This document shows positions 2,151 to 52,838 of a stretch of 64,000 bases of DNA, one piece after another. The notes under the pieces are model-generated. The model did no database searches and was not told where the DNA came from. It saw only the letters and a list, made by a program, of their open reading frames with translations. Origin of the DNA: Morinoia aosen. Its lineage: Eukaryota; Arthropoda; Malacostraca; Amphipoda; Talitridae. Both the position numbers and the translations under genes were made by a program. Numbering within the stretch: the stretch's first letter is position 1; the number at the start of each line of letters is the position of its first letter. The stretch is taken from assembly GCA_030386875.1 (NCBI GenBank), contig CM059573.1:27569891-27633890 (forward strand), written 5' to 3'.

Positions 2151-4370
2151 GAAAACTATTTTCCCTTTTCTTTCATTCTCTTACACAAACATTGACAAGT
2201 GTTTTATGATACCCATGTACGTTACCAACTATATATACCTTTATACTAAAATATTTTACAAATCAATGCCTATGGTATAAATTTATCGGTGATTAAACGG
2301 TTTTTCTTTTCTTTCGTTTTTATTTCCTGGGAATCGTCTGTTTTCCTGTGAAAAAATTATGCATTGTAAATATTTCTTCCGATCTTCATAAGTCACCAGC
2401 GTATTTTTCTGGACATATATACTCTCATTTGTTTAGTTTTAGCGAAGCTGACATTGAGGAATGAATCGTTAAAGATGAACTTTCTTGAGTACCAATTTCA
2501 TGAGTGGAAGATTAGCTAAACAATAACTGAATGTGAGTCTTTTGCATTCACTTATAATGTTTAATACTTGACGTCCTAATGTATCACGTGGAAAGCAACA
2601 CTACAACGTCCTATTCAAACATAGAGAACTTCGTTACCACTCAAAAAATTAAACTCCAATTCAGCTCTCAATGCAAACTGGAATTTTTAGTTTTCTCGTT
2701 TCCATTAGAAGTGTTAAATTAGAAACATTTATCGAGATTCTTCCACTTAACTTCCTCGGTGAATTTTGATACTACTTAAAAATTCATACAGCATGAATGG
2801 CAAAATTAGAGCGTCCTCCACGAAACTGATCTATGATCATTTATTTAAGCCCATTTGTTGAAATAATTTTGATTAATGACACTATAACTATGCCCATGGG
2901 ATGTAGTTATCATAAATGATGATAAAATAACTATATCTATGTAACGTATACTTATTTTGATTTTGATAACACGACTACACACGTGCAATGTAACTACATA
3001 TTTTGATTCATGAACATAACCATGTACATGGATTGTAATCGTTCCGTCAGTGATGAAGTAATTGTGAACGTGTAAAAAACTACAGTGAATTTCTGTTGCG
3101 CAGCTACACTAGGTATACTTAGAAAATATCCGGACTGTGGTTATGTTAGGATAAGTTCAACGAGTGCCAATTCAAAATTTAATGGCTTCAAAGTTTTTAG
3201 TTCGGGAGCCCACACTTTGCCAAAACCTGAAGCTCTGGTCTTATACATAAAGGCTTCTAGTTTTCAGATTGTGTTACTACTATTGATAATGAAAATTAAA
3301 TAAGCTTATTCTGACATAACTGGAATATTAGTTGATTTTTTCGGCAATATGTAATACCCATGTACTTCAACCTGATCTCTTTGCATTGTTAACTTCCTTA
3401 TGTTTAGGCCCAGTTAACCTGTATTAATACTGAAAATTTCTGCTCATTTCTCAAGTTATTCCTTGAATCTTGTTTGTTTCTTTTAGAGATATATTGTACT
3501 TCACCATTTCATTTTCATGTTAAATTTTTCTCTTTTGATCACTCTCCAGTTTCTAAGGAAGCATACGCTGAATCGGAGGTTTTATAATTATGTTTTTGCA
3601 ATTTTAAAAAGGGAAATAGTGTTTGTTTCTTGGCATTATATAATTAATTACTGCTTCTTAAAGAAACATTTGGAAATGTTGTAAGATAATCAATATCGGC
3701 ATCGGGACACATGAATAAATAAAATACAAAGTAAACGAGTTGCAGGAAAAATAATAACACAACACCAGCAAAAACTTCACTTAGTCACACACATGCTGTA
3801 ACTGAAAGCAATGCACTATCTCAGCTGCAGTGATTGTTGCATTTATGCGATAGTACAAATTTTCTTACTAAAAACATTCCAAATTGCACCAAAAATACAA
3901 AATGACAATAACGTGGGCGTTTATTAAAATAAGAAAGTGTCAAATACAAAGTAAGAAGTCAGACGAGAATAAAAGACAGTATCATATTACAAACAAAGAA
4001 GCTAAAAGTGACTCTCATTTGGGAATAAAATGTCCCAAAAACGTCCGGCCCCTGCAACGAAAGCAGAACAACTTTTGCCTATCATAGCCGAGATATACAT
4101 AACATAGTGTTGAGCAATAATATTACATCTTTTCTGCTTTGTTACCCTTCATAATGTAGATACAGTAAAGAGAAGGCACTGTGCAAATCTTGCCTACCTG
4201 ATCTACATGTATGTAATAATTTTTGGGATTTTGAGCATAGTAATTGAATCAATTAGCGTAATTTCGTTGAATTGGTGGATACATGCTAATAGAAAAAACT
4301 GTGGATGCTTATCTATGCTTCTCAGGGTATAGAAACTGCCTACTTTGCCTACTCAGAAGACGCCTGTCAG

Positions 4371-4371
<1 letters not shown>
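2151..4371. other. AT-rich stretch, no gene seen
   Basis: I see no supported coding region, RNA gene or terminal inverted repeat. Open frames are under 75 codons and have no recognisable motif. Confidence 0.5.

Positions 4372-4402
<31 letters not shown>
4372..4402. repeat. (TA)n microsatellite
   Basis: An uninterrupted TA run of about 15 units abuts the left end of the giant palindrome. Confidence 0.95.
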
Positions 4403-4406
<4 letters not shown>

Positions 4407-4907
4407 ACACGACCCGTCATAAATGACGGGATTCGATATGGTCTTCGTACAAATCTTCCAGAATTGGATCATAAAGAATTCCCCACTCCCAAGAGTATCC
4501 GCGATTAAAATATTCTTGTACTTGTGCACTGGTGAAACTCGTATCACAGGCATCCTTTAAGAGCGTGAACGGGAGACAGACCAACCAACCAAGACGGACC
4601 GACCAATTTTATTTTTTTATTACTCAGTTGAACATTGTAATAGCATAGGAGAAATAATACACAGGAAATACCCAAAATTATTTATTTATTTGTTTGAGGA
4701 GACACTTGGAATTTTAGTGTGTAGGAATAATCAACACTATTTAGGGTATTTTTTTTGTGCGGACAAATTTCGGTTACATAAACTCAAAATAAATCGATTT
4801 TCACAAATGATATAGGGTCAAAAACTCCCTAGTTTTCGAGTTGTAAGGACTTAAAGAAACTTAAAAACTCAAAGTCGGATACCACGTGCGTGCCAATGTT
4901 AGCGCTA

Positions 4908-5215
4908 GTCTTGTGAGTTCCGACTCCACGAATCAGTTTTTAGCAGTTTTAACAGTTTTTTGTTATTTTTACAATGAAACCTGCAAGCATTTTACACTTG
5001 CAGAAAATTTGCAACGTAACTGTTCGTTAGGAAATAAAACTAAGCCATCAATGATAAACTTTAGTAGTTATTTCATTTAATTGAAAAAACGTACAAACAT
5101 TATTAAATGCTTCATAGCTTGAAACTGCAGATATTTTTCCTACCTGTAAAATGCTTGCAGTTTTTATAGTAAAAATATCAAAAACCTGTTTAAGTGGGGT
5201 GGGAACTATCGAGAC
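4908..5215. mobile_element. MITE, TA target site, inserted in left arm of the palindrome
   Basis: This 308-bp block has no counterpart in the right arm, where the flanks are nearly contiguous near 7468-7473. It is flanked by TA (4906-4907 and 5216-5217). Its ends form imperfect inverted repeats (GTCTTGTGAGTTCC against GTCTCGATAGTTCC on the other strand), and a subterminal pair CTGCAAGCATTTTACA / TGTAAAATGCTTGCAG is perfect. A TA target fits a Tc1/mariner-type non-autonomous element. There is no coding content. Confidence 0.7.
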
Positions 5216-5230
5216 TACACCTTTTTCATT

Positions 5231-5401
5231 TCAAATTAATCCAGTCAAGTTCAATTTAATCCAAATCAAGTTCGAATTAATCCAAGTCAAGTTCAAATAA
5301 GTCTAAGTCAAGTTTAAATTCATTTAAGTCATGTTCAGTTTATTAATCCGAGTCAAGTTCAATTTAACCCAATTAAAATTCAAATTAATCCCACCATAAG
5401 T
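5231..5401. repeat. 21-bp tandem repeat in left palindrome arm
   Basis: About eight diverged copies of a unit near TCAAATTAATCCAAGTCAAG. The same repeat in reverse complement lies at 7352-7470 in the other arm with fewer copies, so the two arrays changed length independently. Confidence 0.8.
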
Positions 5402-6252
5402 TGACTTAAGAATTGACGTAATCACACGTTAGTTTGAGCGAGCGTTTTTTGTGTTAAACATATTTTTATTGGATGTGATGAGCGAGACAACCGTTTTTTC
5501 TTTCAGCGAGGAATACATAAAATTTCCGCCGGTGTTGCAAACTAAAGCGACAAACTGTCGTAAAATGTACTGAGTATCCAGCATTAGGAGGCAGATGGTG
5601 ATTCAGATCTTTGAGGGGCGTAAAAGATACAAGTCAGTTATAGAAACCTCGGATTATTCTACTCATCGAAGTTATTTTAAAATTCTACATTATGGTAGTA
5701 TGCATCCATTCAAATACGATTATTTATGTTCAATAGATAATTTTATGTTACACATAAAATAAAGGTTTATACGCGTGAAATTTCACTTTATCACATGTGT
5801 GAAATCACATATACATGCAACTACATAAGAATAACATTGGACGATTGTAGATTTAATACTTAAAAGAAATTTAGTTACAAAGTCCTTTTTTTGCTCGTCC
5901 AAACGATATTCGTAAAAACAAGTTACAATTATTTCATCGACATAGATGATACATTTGCCTTGGCCATAAATTTCAAGGGATGACAACATTTTTATTGCTG
6001 ATGCAGGAGTGTACCTGTGTGGTAATGTGAGACTCATATCAATTGTGTTCAAACGGAATCGTACATAAGTACTCAGTAAATCGTATTTGTATATTTGTTT
6101 AAAGATTGGTCTACATATCGTCCAGTAGTAATCTTAAGTAGTTGCATATATATGATTTCATAAATAAATATGTGATGAAGTGGAATTTCACGCATATAAA
6201 TCACTATATGAGTGTAAATAAGTTCTTGATACTAATATGTGCAACATAAAAT

Positions 6253-7041
6253 GTAAGGGCATGGCTTAGCGCGTGCGTCCTGTCTCCTAATAAAGTGACC
6301 CCGGAGAGAAAGCCAGTGCTTGGCCATGCTCAGTATTATAATTCCGCCGAATACCCGATAACCGGGTTGTAAACTCGTCACGCCATCGTGTATGGCAGGC
6401 TGGGGAGGATATAGCGAGTCTTCCGAAGTGTCATGCGTCCTGTCGACCGCTCACAGTGCCGTGCTATTCATCCTTTCGTGTACCGGCTTCCTCGTATGAC
6501 CCTGTTCGTCAGGAACGCCCAGGCCCCCAGACCTCATATGGCCTTGGAGTTGCTGTCCGTGCTTCTCCAGTTAACTACGTGTAGCTTCGTCTCGAGTGCT
6601 CTCTTGAGGAAGGGGTTACTACTCAAGCCACCTTGTGACTGGGTGTGCTTGGCTGACGTCTAGATTTGAGACGTAGGACCTCGGTCCGGATTATATTTTG
6701 TATGTTGGGAATGTTTTAGGATTAAGAGGGTAGCTTAAGGATCTGCGCCAACTTCGGCTTCCGTGTTCGTTCCGAGTTGGACGCCACTTCGAATACTAAT
6801 ACATAAGTTAAGTGTTAATTTGATCCTGCCTTTCTCTGACCCTCTGGTAATCCGCTCCTCTGATAACGTTTCCGCGGGGACTCGTCTCGTCTCGTGTCTC
6901 TACCCTGGGCTGGACGAGGTTCCCCTATCTATTTACGTGGGGAGGGTACCTTACGAGGCCGGGAGCTGACCTTCAGTCCCAGGTACTCTTTGATACCAGG
7001 CGTAAGCTGCGCCGTTAGCCCGCCTGGCCCATCAAACCCTC
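6253..7041. mobile_element. GC-richer 789-bp insertion with 9-bp flanking repeat
   Basis: It interrupts the right palindrome arm. The identical 9-mer ACATAAAAT lies on both sides (6244-6252, 7042-7050), and the uninterrupted left arm carries the site once. Base composition is much more GC-rich than the surroundings. If the outer bases are counted in, the ends read TG...CA with a 7-bp duplication, which suggests a solo LTR; a 9-bp duplication with weak ends GTAAGGG / GAGGGTT would suit a Mutator-like element. No motif settles this. Short open frames inside (6433-6663, 6763-6969) are not recognisable. Confidence 0.7.
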
Positions 7042-7351
7042 ACATAAAATTACCTTTTGAACATAAATAATTGAATTAATGCATACTACCATTAACGTAG
7101 AATTTAAAAATAACTTTAATGAGTGATATAATACGAAGTTTTTACAATTTAATTGTATCTTTTACGCCGGTTAAAGATCTGAATCACACTCTGCCTCCTG
7201 ATGCTGGGGTCTTAGCACATTTTACGACAGTTTGTCTTCAGATTGCAGCACTGGATGGAATTTCATGTATACCTCGTTGACAGGAAAAATGATTGTCTTG
7301 CTCATCACATTCAATAAAAATATATTTAACACACAAAAAGCTCAAATCCAG

Positions 7352-7470
7352 GAGTGATTATTTCAATTCTTAATTGAACTTAGGGTTGGATTGATTTGAA
7401 TTTGATTTGGATTAATTTGAACTTGAGGTGGATTATTCAAACTTGACTTGGATTAAATTGAAGTGAAAAA
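7352..7470. repeat. 21-bp tandem repeat in right palindrome arm
   Basis: Reverse-complement counterpart of the array at 5231-5401 (units around ACTTGACTTGGATTAA), shorter and more diverged. Confidence 0.75.
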
Positions 7471-8056
7471 AGTAGCGCTAACATTGGCGCGCACGTGGTA
7501 TCCTACTTTAGATTTCAAAGTTTTTACAATTCTTTTAACTCTAAAACTAAGGAGTTTTGGGCATTTTTTTATTTGTGAAAATTAATTTATTTTGAGTTTT
7601 TCAACCAATGCTTTAAATTTTCTCGCGCAAAAAAAACCTTATGTACGTAATAAAACGTCAGGTGTCTCCATCAATTTATAAACAAACGAATGCTTTTGGG
7701 CGTAATTTCTCCTAGGTTATTACAATAGGAATCTGCTTGATTGGATCGTATCATATATACCATTCAACAAATATGAAAAACCTAGCACCTGCTGGCTTTT
7801 TTTGTAAGTAAAAAATTCTGTGTGAAAATTGAATCTATTGTTTAGAAAATGTAGCTTATCGTGGTATAAAGGTATAGCAATTTTGTCAAAAAATTCTCGG
7901 CTAATAATAACTTGAATTGTAATGCACAGTTGTTGCATGCTTGGTTGGTATGTGCGTCTGTGACGTTCTTATTAGGATGCTTAATGACCGCATCTGTGAT
8001 AAGAGTTTCACCGGTGCAAAAATATTTTAATCGCGTGTACTATTAGGATGGATATA

Positions 8057-8252
8057 CAGTATGCCCCACATAAAACCGAACCGAGTATTTATGTTCCCGT
8101 ATCAGTAAAACAATTATAAGAATACTTTAAGCATTTAATTTCTAGCAAAATTATCCGTCAAAATTACCCTATATAAAAGGTATTACTGATTTTGATGGTA
8201 TTACTGATACGGGAAAATAAATGCTCGGTTCGGGTTTTTGTGAGACGTACGG
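8057..8252. mobile_element. 196-bp MITE, TA target site, in right palindrome arm
   Basis: It is flanked by TA at 8055-8056 and 8253-8254. The ends are inverted repeats of about 50 bp: CAGTATGCCCCACATAAA at the left and the complement of CCGTACGTCTCACAAAAA at the right, followed by a shared CCGAACCGAG block and CCCGTATCAGTA. The left palindrome arm lacks it. TIR and TA target fit a mariner-type MITE. Confidence 0.85.
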
Positions 8253-8334
8253 TATTGGTTTGTCATCTATATTTTAATACTTTTTCAAAAGAAGCTATCG
8301 AATCCCATCATTTTTGACGGATCATGTGCACTAG

Positions 8335-8477
8335 TAGATATGTATTAGTAAAACTTGATTTTTACCGTTCTGTCGCCAATTTAAAAAACGTACGTAAATA
8401 AAGAATGTAAGAAACATATGTACAGGTTACGACACCTGGTTCATCAAGAAATAAAATATTCATCGTATAAATTGTGA
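8335..8477. other. short AT-rich spacer
   Basis: Nothing recognisable between the palindrome end and the hAT-like remnant. Confidence 0.4.
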
Positions 8478-8562
8478 ATAGGTGGAGTTGGAGTCGCAAA
8501 ATTCTGAAAAGGAAGAATTGGAGTCGGAATCGCAAATTTATTCCTCCGACTCCGCAACCCTG
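8478..8562. mobile_element. hAT-like terminal remnant with GGAGTC units
   Basis: Repeated GGAGTC-type units end in CTCCGACTCCGCAACCCTG. CAACCCTG is a usual right end for one class of hAT elements whose subterminal region is made of GGAGTCGGA units. No matching left end (CAGGGTTG) was seen, so this is at most a truncated fragment. Confidence 0.4.
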
Positions 8563-15365: not shown

Positions 15366-16345
15366 ATCAAGCAAAGCAACCCCAACGGGACGGATCGTGG
15401 ATCCATAGATTTCACATAGGAAACCCCGCCAGCATCAACTCCACGAACAGTGAAACAAAAACAAGGAACAAAGAGAAAACTAAAGGAAGAAAGCAGGAGA
15501 AGGAGAAGGACATACCAACCACGCAACAACCAGGAGTTGACAGCACCCTCGAAACCACCCAACGAAACCGAATCAAACACGGCAGAGGGAAGGGAGTTCC
15601 AGCGGGCAACGGAACAGGGGACAAAGCAACGCCTATACCGCGAAGTCCTACATCTAACTTCCCTCAGCTCAAAACTATGAGCAGCAGCAGCAGCAGCAGC
15701 AGCACGGGTAGCCCGAATCTGCTCGGCCCTTGGGGGAAGCATATGGAATAACCAGTGCCTTCTATAGTTGAATAGCTTATAAAAAACGCAAAGTTGGGCA
15801 ACCAGTACCGTCTCTGTGCGCCAGAGACGGTATGACCAATCCCGGACATAGCGCTGATGCAGATCTTACAATGCGATCCAAGAGACGCAGGTGGCAATCA
15901 GCCGCAGAACCCCAAACAGGCGAACAATACTCGAGCAGAGGAAGAAGAAAGGCACAGAAGCCTCTCCGCACCAACTGAGGGTCCTGATAAATTCCACCAA
16001 TTACCCTCAGGATCCCCAGCCTTTTGGAGACCTGTGAGACTACCCTCCGCACATGAGCCTCAAATGTGAGCCTCCCATCAAACCGCACACCCAGGAAATC
16101 AAGTTCAGGGTAAACCTCAATAACTCCCCGACATATGACTAGCTCACCGAACGGGGGCTCACTGGTCCTGGATCTACTCACTATGAGCGCCTTTGACTTA
16201 CTAGGATTAAGTATCATATTCCACCTCAAGCACCATTCGTTGATGCGTAACAAATCAGCATTCATGTCTTCTACCACCGCTGGACGCAACATGGGACCGG
16301 GCACAACGGCGACTAATGACGAGTCATCAGCATAAGCAATAAAAT
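15365..16345 (-). pseudogene. 5'-truncated LINE reverse transcriptase
   Basis: The first segment (16433-15777, minus) carries FIAYADDSS, the catalytic YADD box C, at residues 31-39 of that frame. LNPSKSKALIVSRSRT, LDFLGVRFD and LLEYCSPVWGSAADCHLRLL follow in the normal RT-thumb order. A second frame (15742-15362) gives CRTSRYRRCFVPCSVARWNS and LPSAVFDS, the usual C-terminal end of this LINE type. A frameshift lies near 15740-15776, and a GCT/AGC run (15676-15702) has expanded into a poly-Ala stretch. Boxes 0 to B and the endonuclease are absent: sequence upstream of about 16345 is unrelated, so this is a 5'-truncated insertion. Jockey/CR1-like or I-like; not decided. Confidence 0.85.
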
Positions 16346-16735
16346 TAAAATCTATGCACTTTCCGTCGTAAACGATTATTTTACGAATTATAGCGGTATG
16401 TTTAGTTTCGTCTACGATGACGAATGCGCTCAAATAAACAGTTACTCATTGATTTTCGAATTTTGTTGCTTGAATCGTGGTAAAGACATCGAAATAAACA
16501 ACTTTTCTTCTATACACTTTTTTCGTCAAATTAGTATTTAACGAGGTATAGCGGTAGGTTTGGTTTCGTCTTTGATGACGATCGGGCTGGAAGCGAGACG
16601 GCATTGCAGTGATACCGTCCGACGTGCTGCTTGAATTACTTCCCGCTCCAAACACTTGAGTTGCGGTAACTAATTCACCGCTATAACTCGTAAAATACTT
16701 ATTTACGACGGAAATTGCATAGAATAAAACATGTA
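16340..16735. repeat. inverted repeat with internal direct copy at LINE truncation point
   Basis: A block at about 16348-16408 (TCTATGCACTTTCCGTCGTA, then TATAGCGGTATG) recurs inverted at about 16674-16722 (ACCGCTATAA, TTTACGACGGAAATTGCATAG) and again in direct orientation at about 16510-16580 (TATAGCGGTAGG, TTTCGTCTTTGATGACGA). The truncated end of the LINE at 15365-16345 abuts it. Possibly the target repeat into which the LINE inserted. Confidence 0.6.
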
Positions 16736-44333: not shown

Positions 44334-44747
44334 TCGAATTTTTGTCTATCAGCGTAAAAATATCTATCAATAATAAAGGAATAATGTGTGGCATGCACCA
44401 ATCACTATTATTTAAGGAGCCGCGTATCGTCCGTACATCCCTCCGTCCGTCTGTGTGAACCCCTATTGACTATGGTATCCACAATACGCAATCGGCTTAT
44501 TTTTAAAAATCGAATTTTTCTATTGATCTTTCTTTGTTGAAATTCATCATGTCGCTTTGATATTTTTAATTGATATTGCAAAAAATATGTTTTAATTCGT
44601 TTGACCAGTAACCTGGCTACCACTTGGTATAAAGGCCCAGGATTTTGGAACTTAAGTTATTGTTTTCAAAATTGTGATTTTATTAAAAAGCTTTGAAAAG
44701 ATAATAGACGACATTTCAAAATAGAATTCCGGCAAAAGAGGCCACCA

Positions 44748-45170
44748 ATGATAGAAATATGTCCAACCCCAAGAGAGAAGTACCAAGACTTCGACAGCAA
44801 GAAAAAACGCCTAAGACGATCGGATGAACAACGCGAAATGGCAAGACGAAGCAATGCTGTTCGCCAACGAGAAACTAGAGCTAAATTGGCCCTTGACCGG
44901 CGTTTGGAAATTCAACGGAATAATGCAGAGCGGAACACCGAGTAGCTAGAGAGCTTAACACATGAAAGAAACGAGGAAATTCTTCGACATAACGCTGGAC
45001 AACATTGAGTGGCCCGAAAGAATTTAACTCAAGAAAGAAGGGTTGAAATTCTTCACACTAATGCCTAACAGCATCGACTTGCACAATCGAATTTAACTCA
45101 AGAAAGAAGGGATGAAATTCTTCAGATTAATGCCGACCAACACGTGCGCACCAATTTTAATAAACGGGCA
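44748..45170 (+). pseudogene. STPR-like 23-residue repeat protein, broken
   Basis: A single plus frame starting at ATG 44748 gives a Lys/Arg-rich leader and then about five repeats of 23 residues. The last two begin NLTQERRVEILHTNA and NLTQERRDEILQINA, and an earlier, more diverged copy is LALDRRLEIQRNNA. The 23-residue spacing and R/E-rich helical pattern match the score-and-three peptide repeat, a DNA-binding repeat known from the silkworm protein FMBP-1 and seen in some arthropod mobile-element proteins. Three in-frame stops (after residue 65 and in later repeats) break it, yet the frame is otherwise kept. What followed downstream is not recognisable. It could be a decayed host gene or the N-terminal part of a Helitron-type protein. 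Confidence 0.6.
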
Positions 45171-47520: not shown

Positions 47521-48792
47521 CTAAGGACTAAGAAGTACAAACATTTCGTCGGCCAAATACGTGAGGTCCAAAAGTCCAACCGCCGACTCCAAGTGCCACT
47601 TGGCGTGAGGGATCACGGGATTGCACCAGAAATCGCCTGGATAGACGTCAGTCCCATTTTGGAAATCCAGGTTGAAGTAATCGTACGAATTAATTTCGTT
47701 CAGACGAGTGTTGACAATTGGTAAGTATTCATATCCTATTCCGTTAACTGTTTCGTTGAGGAAGAATGGGTTGTCTGTGAGAATTTCTTCTTGCCATAGG
47801 AAGGCATAAATTAGTTTCAAAACTGTGGTGATACCATCTTCAAAGAATCTTGTTTCCTCGATTACTCCCAAGGTGATATTCTCAGTCAAATAGCGGATCT
47901 CAGGCAGGTACTGATCCATGATGAAATCCTGATACTCAGCCTGAAGTCCAAAGGCAGACATGATGATTGGGGCCCAGTGATCCACAAATTCTGGTGTGAA
48001 AACTAAAGTCATTACATTGCTAAAAATTCCTGCGAATGACACATAGTAGTCAGGAATGTCGAATGTTGCTGTGTGTTCATGCCACTCCTCGACTGGCAAA
48101 TTCAAGTACATTTTCTGGAACTCATCGGCGAGTTCAAGTGATGTCAAATTCCTGTACGTCGGACTGAAGTCACGTACGATGGACGACGCTGGTAGATTTG
48201 CAATACTTCCTTGATGAACGAGGTAAGATAAAACTCGTATGCTCCAAGTATCTTGCTGCCCTCCTACGTTGGTGTGGCTTAAATGCATGAACGATGATCC
48301 CATCACCAAACTTACAAAGGCTTTACCAATTGCCTTGATGTAAACTTCAGGAAGATTGAAAACTGTCCCGGCGGCAACCTGCTTGCACAGTTCCAACGGC
48401 GGGTGAATGTAAGCAACATTCGACGCATAATTACATGGTTCGTAGACGGTCATGTTCAGAAAATCAGAGGTTGTTACATTTTTTTCAATATAAACTAAAT
48501 CCATTCCTCCCCATGGGTCACTTTCGGTGCCATTCATGATCCAGTAATTTATTATTCCTTGCCATGCGGAGTCTTGCGACGCGGTTAGGAGAGGGTCGAA
48601 AGTCACCATGCAGTCTCGTAATTCTTGAAAAAGAAGTCTGTCATACTCGGGCTCCCCAGTCATGAGCTGCTGCATAGCATCGAACATCTGCAACATGGCC
48701 GAATCTTCCTCAACCTGGCAATTTACTACAGCCACTGCCAGAGTGCAGAAAACCACTGCTGTCGCAGCACTGAGCGAGAATTTTAAAGCCAT
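47521..48792 (-). CDS. secreted glycoprotein of unknown function, 423 aa
   Basis: This is the only long intact open frame in the window. Residues 1-25 form a clear signal peptide (hydrophobic ALKFSLSAATAVVFCTLAVA, likely cut around C25/Q26), so the product should be secreted or luminal. The mature chain has seven N-glycosylation sequons (N87, N105, N113, N215, N305, N346, N379) and four cysteines (C61, C120, C136, C390), enough for two disulfides. It is rich in aromatic and acidic residues (for example DPWGGMDLVY, VDHWAPIIMSAFG, YPGDFWCNP), with no membrane span or GPI-type tail. The ATG has a favourable context (AAC before, G after) and no introns interrupt the frame. I do not recognise the family; an arthropod-specific secreted protein is an inference. 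No neighbour suggests a pathway. Confidence 0.9.
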   Translation of the reverse strand: MALKFSLSAATAVVFCTLAVAVVNCQVEEDSAMLQMFDAMQQLMTGEPEYDRLLFQELRDCMVTFDPLLTASQDSAWQGIINYWIMNGTESDPWGGMDLVYIEKNVTTSDFLNMTVYEPCNYASNVAYIHPPLELCKQVAAGTVFNLPEVYIKAIGKAFVSLVMGSSFMHLSHTNVGGQQDTWSIRVLSYLVHQGSIANLPASSIVRDFSPTYRNLTSLELADEFQKMYLNLPVEEWHEHTATFDIPDYYVSFAGIFSNVMTLVFTPEFVDHWAPIIMSAFGLQAEYQDFIMDQYLPEIRYLTENITLGVIEETRFFEDGITTVLKLIYAFLWQEEILTDNPFFLNETVNGIGYEYLPIVNTRLNEINSYDYFNLDFQNGTDVYPGDFWCNPVIPHAKWHLESAVGLLDLTYLADEMFVLLSP

Positions 48793-48982
48793 GTTCGTGT
48801 TGCCAGGATGAGACGCTTCTAACGCGATTCATGCAGTTGCACGGATTCTTAGGTTACTGCATCCTGAGAAGAGCGTCACCTGATGAGAACTGATTTCCTT
48901 CCCTGTAAAAGATACCGGCTACTACGCACCAGCTTGTTTATTACATTACGCGATAACTAAACCACTGTTAGCACCATAGTAA

Positions 48983-51482: not shown

Positions 51483-52778
51483 GACCTAAAGGTCTCCCGG
51501 TACGAAAGCTTACTCCGCGGTGCTGGGCGATCCTGACGTAAAAAGGCAGCGTCGTCATGCCGACGTAGCCAGACGTACACTGTACGCAACTAAATTTATA
51601 TACCAGGGATGCCCGCATCCGCTTAGGAACCCTATCTTTGTACCGAAAGAAAAAACCAACTCGCAGTAGATTCACAGTAATTACATTTAATTTTACCGCA
51701 GGAAAGTGGTGTTTAAAAAGGTTTTCAAAATCCCGGTGCATCTTGCTCATAAAGTCACCAAAATATGGAAATACGTAGTAGAGCTATTGCACCGAATCGG
51801 CGACATCGTTAATACCTGAATATCTCTTGGCTAAAAATTTTCTAATATGAGCATGAACAATTGAGGAAGGGAATCCGTTTTTACAAAAAAGGGAGACTAA
51901 AAAATTAAATTCAGCATGCAGATCCACAAAACTAGAACAAATGTTGAAGTCACGATTTAATAAGGTTTTAATCGCATTAATTTTAAATCTAGAGTTACAG
52001 TTGCTGTAGAAACTTATGCCCAATCCAGTAAAAGTAGCCTTACAAAAAACTGAAGAAGTGAAAGCTTTACCTACTCGAGTAATTTTTGAGTCCAAAAAAG
52101 ATAACGAGCCATTATTCTCAATTTCGATTGTAAATTTTATTGATGAATGTTTCTCATTTAAATAGTCCCTAACATTTGAGCATGACTTGGATCACGAAAC
52201 AACAAAAACGTGTCATCAATGTAACGGCGATAAAATTCTGGTTTAAATTCCACAGGACAATCGGCCAGCCATTTTTGTTCCCAGTGACACATGAAAATAT
52301 TTGCAAATGTGGGTCCTAACGGAAGACCCATGCCCAGGCCATCGATTTGTTTATACATATTACCAGCAAACACAAATATAGAGTTCATAACAGACAGTTC
52401 GTGAAGCGTCTTAAAATAAGATTTGCCTAGGCCTAAAACTGTATCACTTGTCAAAGCAAACAAGGAATTTATAATTATTTCAATGGTTTCTGCAAGTGGA
52501 ATATTTTTGAATAAGCTTTCAATATCAAATGAAGCCATGGTCATTTTATCGGCATTTCGACACGATGTGATCTCGTTAACAAATTGAGTTGAGTTACCAA
52601 GAGTATATTCATTCACAGTCAAAGGATTTAACACAGGTACTAGAAATCGTGCTGAGTTAAAACTAGGCGAATTCACTGCAGCAAAAATAGGACGAAATTG
52701 AAATTTAGATGGAAAGTCTAATTTAAGGATTTTCGGCAAACCATACAGGACTCCCGGACGTGAACCTGACACATACAA
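51406..52778 (-). pseudogene. Penelope-like RT and GIY-YIG endonuclease, broken
   Basis: The first segment (52778-52158) holds RPGVLYGLPKI, a core FDIESLFKNIPL (residues 84-95), GLGMGLPLGPTFAN (147-160) and YRRYIDDTFLLF with catalytic YIDD (186-189). It ends at a frameshift near 52160-52168. A second frame carries LDSKITRVGKAF and the linker down to 51784, where a stop follows DVADSVQ. The same frame continues with MSKMHRDFENLF and the endonuclease: VYKFSCVQC, SGYVG and FYVRIAQHRG (Tyr, YVG and Arg of the GIY-YIG fold, with the paired cysteines typical of this family), then PPHSSIRLH. So there is one frameshift, one nonsense codon and a missing 5' part. The RT primes on target DNA and the endonuclease cuts it in active relatives; this copy is dead. 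Confidence 0.9.
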
Positions 52779-52838
52779 CTTCGAGTATACAGTTCAGGAG
52801 AGAAAACCTTCAGATTTTTAAGCTTGCGTAAAAAATTA

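Follow-up and report, generated by a model that had tools for sequence, protein, structure and literature searches.

Non-autonomous hAT elements and hAT miniature inverted-repeat transposable elements (MITEs; the hobo, mar and BuT2 group) carry short terminal inverted repeats (TIRs) and 8-bp target site duplications (TSDs), as outlined in PMC8961557. The subject of the present analysis is a large palindrome at positions 4403–8334 of a 64,000-nucleotide stretch of DNA from the amphipod Morinoia aosen, hereafter called the window. It very probably forms the core of a single copy, old and truncated on the left, of a non-autonomous hAT-type DNA transposon with high copy number. The family represented in the window has the short TIRs and 8-bp TSDs of the hAT MITEs and resembles them in its high copy number and in the lack of any coding capacity found. 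hAT elements are 2.5–5 kb long according to the same account (PMC8961557), whereas the window family measures about 5–7 kb. Unlike the hAT MITEs compared, it has ~30-bp subterminal minisatellites and a large internal palindrome.

Long inverted arms are known from other systems. Tetris of Drosophila virilis has long inverted arms with flanking, tandem-repeat outer and inner domains around a non-coding middle, as found here, and no autonomous copy was found there either (PMC4079207). The Tetris arms are enclosed by 8–10 bp TSDs and contain 220-bp repeats (PMC4079207), whereas in the window the arms lie within a hAT-like unit, the repeat length is 21 bp and the inner palindrome, called P, is without a detectable TSD. 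Galileo, of the P superfamily, also has long and dynamic inverted repeats that are extended by tandem repeats and inserted transposons (PMC4168063). It differs in that its arms are true termini with 7–8 bp TSDs, and some copies carry transposase segments, as described there (PMC4168063). A limited literature search of titles and abstract openings found no earlier description of a nested palindrome inside a hAT-type element.

The palindrome and its layers

The palindrome at 4403–8334 is real. BLAST of the region against the window gave inverted matches between 5313–5748 and 7042–7468 (79.5% over 439 columns), 4780–4920 and 7460–7599 (78.7%, 141 bp), and 5743–5873 and 6090–6221 (75.4%, 138 bp). 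Outer, shorter matches join 4487–4549 to 7994–8048 (76%) and 4389–4438 to 8296–8345 (80%). Significant inverted matches cover 1,976 of the 3,932 bases, compared with 0 bases in 19 of 20 mononucleotide shuffles and 46 bases in the remaining one. Applied to 13 further stretches of 3.9 kb in the window, the same measure ranged from 0 to 1,181 bases, which indicates that smaller inverted repeats are common in the window; 4403–8334 gave the largest value measured.

A preliminary description, made from the letters of the window, had placed the palindrome here and stated that almost everything in it pairs. This holds only if the insertions are disregarded and decay of some parts is tolerated, not for the region as it stands. 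After subtraction of a long terminal repeat (LTR, 793 bp), a MITE (196 bp) and an inverted repeat present in the left arm only (246 bp), ~2.7 kb remains, close to the ~2.6 kb proposed earlier, and the loop lies within the suggested limit of 300 bp. The 21-bp tandem repeat that had been noticed in the arms was recovered in both of them by Tandem Repeats Finder (TRF), and the later insertions were recognized as a solo LTR and a MITE.

Instead of the one palindrome described earlier, the region holds two nested palindromic layers of different age, an outer layer Q and the inner element P (Table 1). The anatomy of foldback elements, with long inverted arms and tandem-repeat, inner and middle domains, is present in it. 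The short inverted repeat of the left arm is covered by alignments in four other copies (loci L012, L040, L041 and L043), so it is older than the insertion of the window copy. Here and below, loci of family copies or relatives are numbered with L and contigs with C.

The solo LTR is bordered by the 5-bp TSD TAAAA at 6247–6251 and 7045–7049. At least 39 other copies of it were scored, 92–99% identical, and five same-strand pairs are spaced 5.96–6.09 kb apart. The MITE is missing at the equivalent place in L069 and L072; we take it to be Tc1/mariner-like from its form.

Table 1. Positions in the window of the hAT-like unit, its palindromic layers and the late insertions.
Feature	Positions	Strand	Details
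Surviving part of non-autonomous hAT-like unit	3215–8562	+	homology to other copies
Left interior of the unit, non-palindromic	3215–4402	+	closes with a (TA)n run, 4372–4402 (TRF)
Outer palindrome (layer Q), left arm	4403–4912	+	pairs with 7478–8334; consensus arms 78–96% identical by segment
Short inverted repeat, left arm only	4948–5193	+	246 bp, 49-bp arms, inside the loop of the outer palindrome
Inner palindromic element P	5213–7477	+	1.47 kb without the LTR; CTACACCTTTTTCACTTCAA-like ends on both sides
21-bp subterminal tandem repeats, left arm of P	5230–5391	+	TRF, 7.6 copies
Central palindrome loop	5874–6089	.	~216 bp, between innermost arms 5743–5873 and 6090–6221
Solo LTR, late insertion	6252–7044	.	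TG...CA ends, TGTAAGGG...CCCTCACA
21-bp subterminal tandem repeats, right arm of P	7370–7462	+	TRF, 4.5 copies
Outer palindrome (layer Q), right arm	7478–8334	+	inverted matches; consensus comparison
MITE, late insertion	8057–8252	.	196 bp, inverted ends, TA on either side
Right end of the unit	8335–8562	+	subterminal GGAGTCGGAGTCG-type minisatellite, then terminal CTCCGACTCCGCAACCCTG

The hAT-like unit around the palindrome

The genome searched comprises 1.99 Gb in 29 contigs, and copy counts are lower bounds. Two queries, one from the inner and one from the outer left arm, each found at least 39 other dispersed places (40 scored of 2,360 and 4,808 first-look candidates, respectively). This result refutes one isolated inverted duplication, or an artefact of assembly, as the origin of the palindrome, a reading of negligible probability: all 39 other scored matches of each query lie at other places, on many contigs. 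The dispersed family suggested in the preliminary description was thus borne out.

The sequence beyond 4403 and 8334 is common to other copies. In 36 of 47 cases (30 left and 6 right), the outer ends run on into a module that is also present in some other copy, a count that omits own-copy matches and twin loci and retains a few near-duplicate segments; with self-matches included, the count is 41 of 53. These common flanks rule out the palindrome ends as element termini. The limits assigned in the preliminary description therefore did not hold, and the repeat continues on both sides to short TIRs and 8-bp TSDs. The palindrome is a passenger of the transposon, not its end-structure.

Another reading takes 4403–8334 itself as a self-moving foldback element, with flanking, tandem-repeat outer, inner and middle domains, that landed in an older repeat. 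Its anatomy matches the foldback scheme of Tetris, and the flanks of 11 of the 47 outer ends are simple repeats or of some other kind. In other contexts, a unit of 510 bp related to the outer end is also repeated, with inverted pairs 51–54 bp apart at C24:60052306 and C21:35092964. However, the other 36 ends share the same non-palindromic flanks, and the two layers, inner and outer, are neither equally diverged nor distributed alike. At the two 510-bp pairs, one of two flanks resembles the flank of another copy (L032, L075), so the pairs may lie in larger repeats. We consider a self-moving palindrome of this kind distinctly improbable. Arms that serve as termini inside 8–10 bp TSDs were found neither for the whole palindrome, given its shared flanks, nor for P. 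The palindromes formed by the 510-bp unit were also considered as a source of TSDs for the outer layer and rejected, since the two pairs read have none. The foldback or long-TIR element proposed earlier survives only in part: the family is dispersed, rich in inverted repeats and non-coding, and P alone is foldback-like, but the whole palindrome is not the mobile unit and P lacks a TSD.

Homology to the hAT-type family starts at 3215–3217 (L016, L070, L072, L073, L074 and L075) and stops at 8562. No family homology was found upstream of about 3212, and the left end of the window copy was not found. The left interior is 78–82% identical to L071, L072 and L074, and 3393–4377 is 80.5% identical to the TSD-flanked L076. 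The TIRs of hAT elements begin with CAG(G)G. Relatives of the window copy open with CAGGGTTGCGGAGTCGG, the counterpart of its right-end CTCCGACTCCGCAACCCTG, and the left ends of L069, L073 and L074 read C(A/C)GGGTTG(C/G)GGAGT or near. The 17-mer TIR, with up to 3 mismatches allowed, occurs once in the window, at 8546–8562, where the match is exact. Across the genome, CAGGGTTGCGGAGTCGG occurs at 1871 forward and 1901 reverse sites, compared with 0 and 0 for the reversed control pattern.

Pairing of the 17-mer was analyzed in the first 100 places listed, all of which are on contig C1. Neighbor pairs within 20 kb are inward-facing in 42 cases, outward-facing in 4 and on the same strand in 2. The inward-facing pairs are 4.8–15 kb long and cluster at 5.7–6.1 kb (18 of 42) and 6.9–7.03 kb (11 of 42). 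A perfect 8-bp TSD surrounds 6 of 10 sampled inward pairs. L076, which was read whole, is 6.0 kb long with CAGGGTTGCGGAGTCGG at both ends and a perfect 8-bp TSD; L069 has a TSD matching at 7 of 8 bases and TIR near-matches at both ends. The seven perfect TSDs were compared with nTnnnnAn, the consensus quoted for Ac-type hAT elements (PMC8961557); five have T at position 2 and five have A at position 7. With these ends and duplications, the mobile unit fits a non-autonomous hAT-type element.

The longest stop-to-stop frame in 3215–8562 is 116 amino acids long and has no Pfam match, in agreement with the earlier remark that no transposase is visible. Matches to the hAT dimerization domain (PF05699) are present in the genome (best 150 of 2,753 scored). 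L075, from a short class of left-end matches, was considered as the autonomous parent and rejected; it belongs to the same family, with deletions and other insertions, and no transposase was seen in it.

Three side observations concern this family or its domain. At about 1730–1775, a degenerate sequence looks by eye like the minisatellite and TIR found at the right end of the hAT-like unit and is possibly an older relative. Of the 40 right-end copies scored, 8 score alike and lie within 5 Mb on C5 (52.1–57.0 Mb), which suggests segmental amplification. Many of the 150 scored dimerization-domain matches lie on C21, mainly at 4–6 Mb and 61–83 Mb; their clustering on one contig and similar frame lengths suggest an amplified transposase-derived gene family.

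The inner palindromic element P

P has the ends CTACACCTTTTTC, sharp boundaries (CTACACCTTTTTCAC...) and 21-bp subterminal repeats. With both ends, it was found at nine other loci (L023, L025, L028, L029, L030, L034, L035, L036 and L038), where the adjoining flanks differ from those of the hAT-like unit. The flanks of the nine loci show no relation to one another, apart from 196 bp in L029 that match L032. The left flank of L025 recurs beside P in L032, and the far left flank of L029 holds a fragment of the outer arm. The bases flanking P vary, and its ends are symmetrical at the nine loci. A TSD of 3–10 bp, at any offset up to 12, was seen in no more than 2 of the 9. Short direct matches in the flanks of L036 (20 bp at 90%) lie in repetitive sequence and are not readable as a TSD, although they might conceivably be one. 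P is a foldback-like family without a detectable TSD.

DINE-1/HINE Helentrons insert without target duplication. Like P, they are non-coding and present in high copy number (PMC4067079). Their subterminal repeats are 12–15 bp long, and they combine a 3' stem-loop with a TT target, according to that account (PMC4067079), whereas P is a long symmetrical palindrome with varying flanking bases. Judged from flanking bases and end symmetry, neither a TT target nor asymmetry of the ends was found for P at the nine loci. Some copies of P begin with CACTA, and a CACTA-type element was considered and rejected; the first letters vary, no 2–3 bp TSD was seen by eye, and none was found in the test from 3 bp upward.

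In the window, P occupies the loop of the outer palindrome and adjoins the right arm of that palindrome. At L023, inverted flanks of 98 bp and 90% identity enclose P at distances of 5 and 18 bp. These flanks belong to another repeat with further places in the genome, 40 of whose 150 candidates were scored; at one place it forms an inverted pair with a separation of 855 bp. The possibility that P is a regular part of the L023-type repeat was rejected, since none of the 39 other scored P places (best 40 of 4,093) coincides with the 38 other listed places of that repeat (best 40 of 150). Separately, relatives of the L023 flank at C12:12857634 and C12:12339559 lie ~0.4 kb from hAT-like right ends (C12:12858137 and C12:12340062), and this repeat may thus also occur inside such units.

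P may be an independent palindromic element that joins DNA without target duplication, perhaps by capture at double-strand breaks, and leans to the middle of existing inverted repeats. Its sharp ends and scarce TSDs at the nine loci speak for this, as do its positions in the loop of Q and in L023. Between arms of 60 bp or more, spacers no longer than 150 bp occupy 0.2% of the window, and those no longer than 300 bp occupy 1.7%. However, P stands at a palindrome center in only 2 of 11 contexts (Q, the nine loci and L017/L021), and no convincing inverted flank was seen in the other nine. Next to P, the loop of Q measures ~300 bp in the window, and the higher background may be the fair one there. 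TSDs of P may also have decayed, as the copies are about 7–9% diverged, and the L036 flanks do carry short direct matches. The flanks of P may furthermore belong to undetected larger units, as the recurring left flank of L025 illustrates. An independent P is a tentative possibility that we judge somewhat unlikely. The leaning to palindrome centers is suggestive, not proof. It is a good deal less likely still that P represents a mobile palindrome unlike TIR transposons, which would prefer the centers of palindromes, for example through capture at cruciform breaks, and build nested palindromes that hAT elements then carry.

Two further observations concern loci with P. Positions 1–190 of L032 resemble a complement C3/alpha-2-macroglobulin exon (best PDB match, E 9e-6) and adjoin half a copy of P. 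The P-bearing segment is shared, at 93–94% identity, by L011 and L014 on the same contig.

Arm divergence, history and significance

After removal of 13 near-duplicate rows, the alignment of P contained 30 left and 19 right arms, whose consensus sequences agree at 338 of 339 columns. For lone P (9 left and 9 right arms), the agreement is 335 of 336. The remaining arms (21 left and 10 right), judged hAT-borne from the flanks available, agree at 323 of 334 columns, with 11 differences. Consensus segments of the outer layer agree at 78%, 83%, 89% and 96% and are mostly more diverged, although assignment of left and right by best score may overstate this difference, which draws on only 5–15 right arms. 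Such divergence fits the entry of P into an older palindrome. L076 has the outer palindrome arms and no match to window 4741–7658. Its core is full-length in 29 of 39 other scored copies at 92–97% identity, whereas the inner arms of the window-type (W-type) copies stand ~9% from their consensus, indicating that the L076 branch is younger.

Retention of the palindrome for a function, such as hairpin RNA or arm-to-arm repair, could explain why within-copy arm identity exceeds that of re-paired arms in 17 copies (reached in 0 of 5000 permutations); it is highest in L017 (97.3%), L025 (93.8%) and L036 (90.6%). The arms of the 17 copies also have nine private changes in common, five of them in L017, where ~1.4 would be expected from cross-copy pairs. 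In L017, 16 changes in all are common to both arms. However, in none of the eight hAT-borne copies that retain both arms is a private change common to the two, and the arms of L076 are only 76% and 83% alike (74–88% for cross-arm matches in listed copies), although copies of its family are 92–97% alike. Homogenization in a few copies is ordinary gene conversion. No sign of selection keeping the arms paired was seen, and retention for function is highly improbable. The arm pattern is better matched by sporadic gene conversion from one arm to the other, or by the history of subfamilies, than by maintenance. Among hAT-borne copies, arms of the same side pair across copies in L013/L018 (both arms) and in L016/L033 and L045/L048 (right arms).

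The following history would account for these data, its order being read from arm divergence. Layer Q would have lain as a palindrome inside the transposon from an early point in its history, and L076 still carries the outer arms. P would then have inserted into the loop of Q in the lineage leading to the window copy, with its arms nearly identical at the time lone copies spread. The enlarged element could have spread as cargo by cut-and-paste, presumably through a hAT transposase acting in trans on CAGGGTTGCGGAGTCGG ends and producing 8-bp duplications. Later, the window copy would have decayed and gained an LTR retroelement, now a solo LTR, and the TA-flanked MITE.

Besides the outer ends without shared flanks and the best-score assignment of outer arms, several points weigh against a hAT-type transposon carrying the palindrome. 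L076 lacks P, so the TSD-flanked copy that was read whole is a relative, not a member of the same subfamily, and its TSD sits in a GTT-rich site. Four of the ten sampled TIR pairs have no TSD (flanks match at 4, 5, 4 and 1 of 8 bases); in two TSD-less pairs, the flanks are mutually reverse-complementary, as expected for a duplicated segment. The window copy has no left end, and hence its own TSD is not visible; a search for its expected TSD plus left end gave 33 genome matches (up to 1 mismatch), none on contig C18. No transposase was found in five units, whose frames reach at most 125 amino acids; a Pfam scan of eight of the 12 longest frames, with four low-complexity or overlapping ones set aside, yielded no match above the cut-off. 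No link emerged between these ends and the PF05699 matches elsewhere in the genome. The arms of the hAT-borne L020 are sisters with 11 shared non-private changes, contrary to simple inheritance.

The window contains other features. A 13-bp minisatellite (TACGGGTTCGCAG) at 221–771 has ~42 copies and is open in several frames. The minus strand holds two frames that by their motifs resemble reverse transcriptases, one at 15777–16445 of a putative non-LTR element (YADD) and one at 52158–52793 of a putative Penelope-like element. A 435-amino-acid open frame at 47521–48828, also on the minus strand, starts with a putative signal peptide and may be an exon of a secreted host protein. A 69-bp tandem repeat at 44471–45142 reads as coding and has an 88% identical relative in L075 at 3300–3899.

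The nesting is unusual, as is the placement of P at the center of another inverted repeat in L023. Although long palindromes generally count as unstable, one of nearly 3 kb rides here in a DNA transposon family whose exact TIR marks almost 3,800 genome sites, a number of TIR sites and not of palindrome-carrying copies. For repeat annotation, this is a caution that palindrome ends are not necessarily transposon ends. The series of L076-type copies, older W-type copies and lone P copies lets palindrome decay, conversion between arms and insertion of one palindrome into another be measured.

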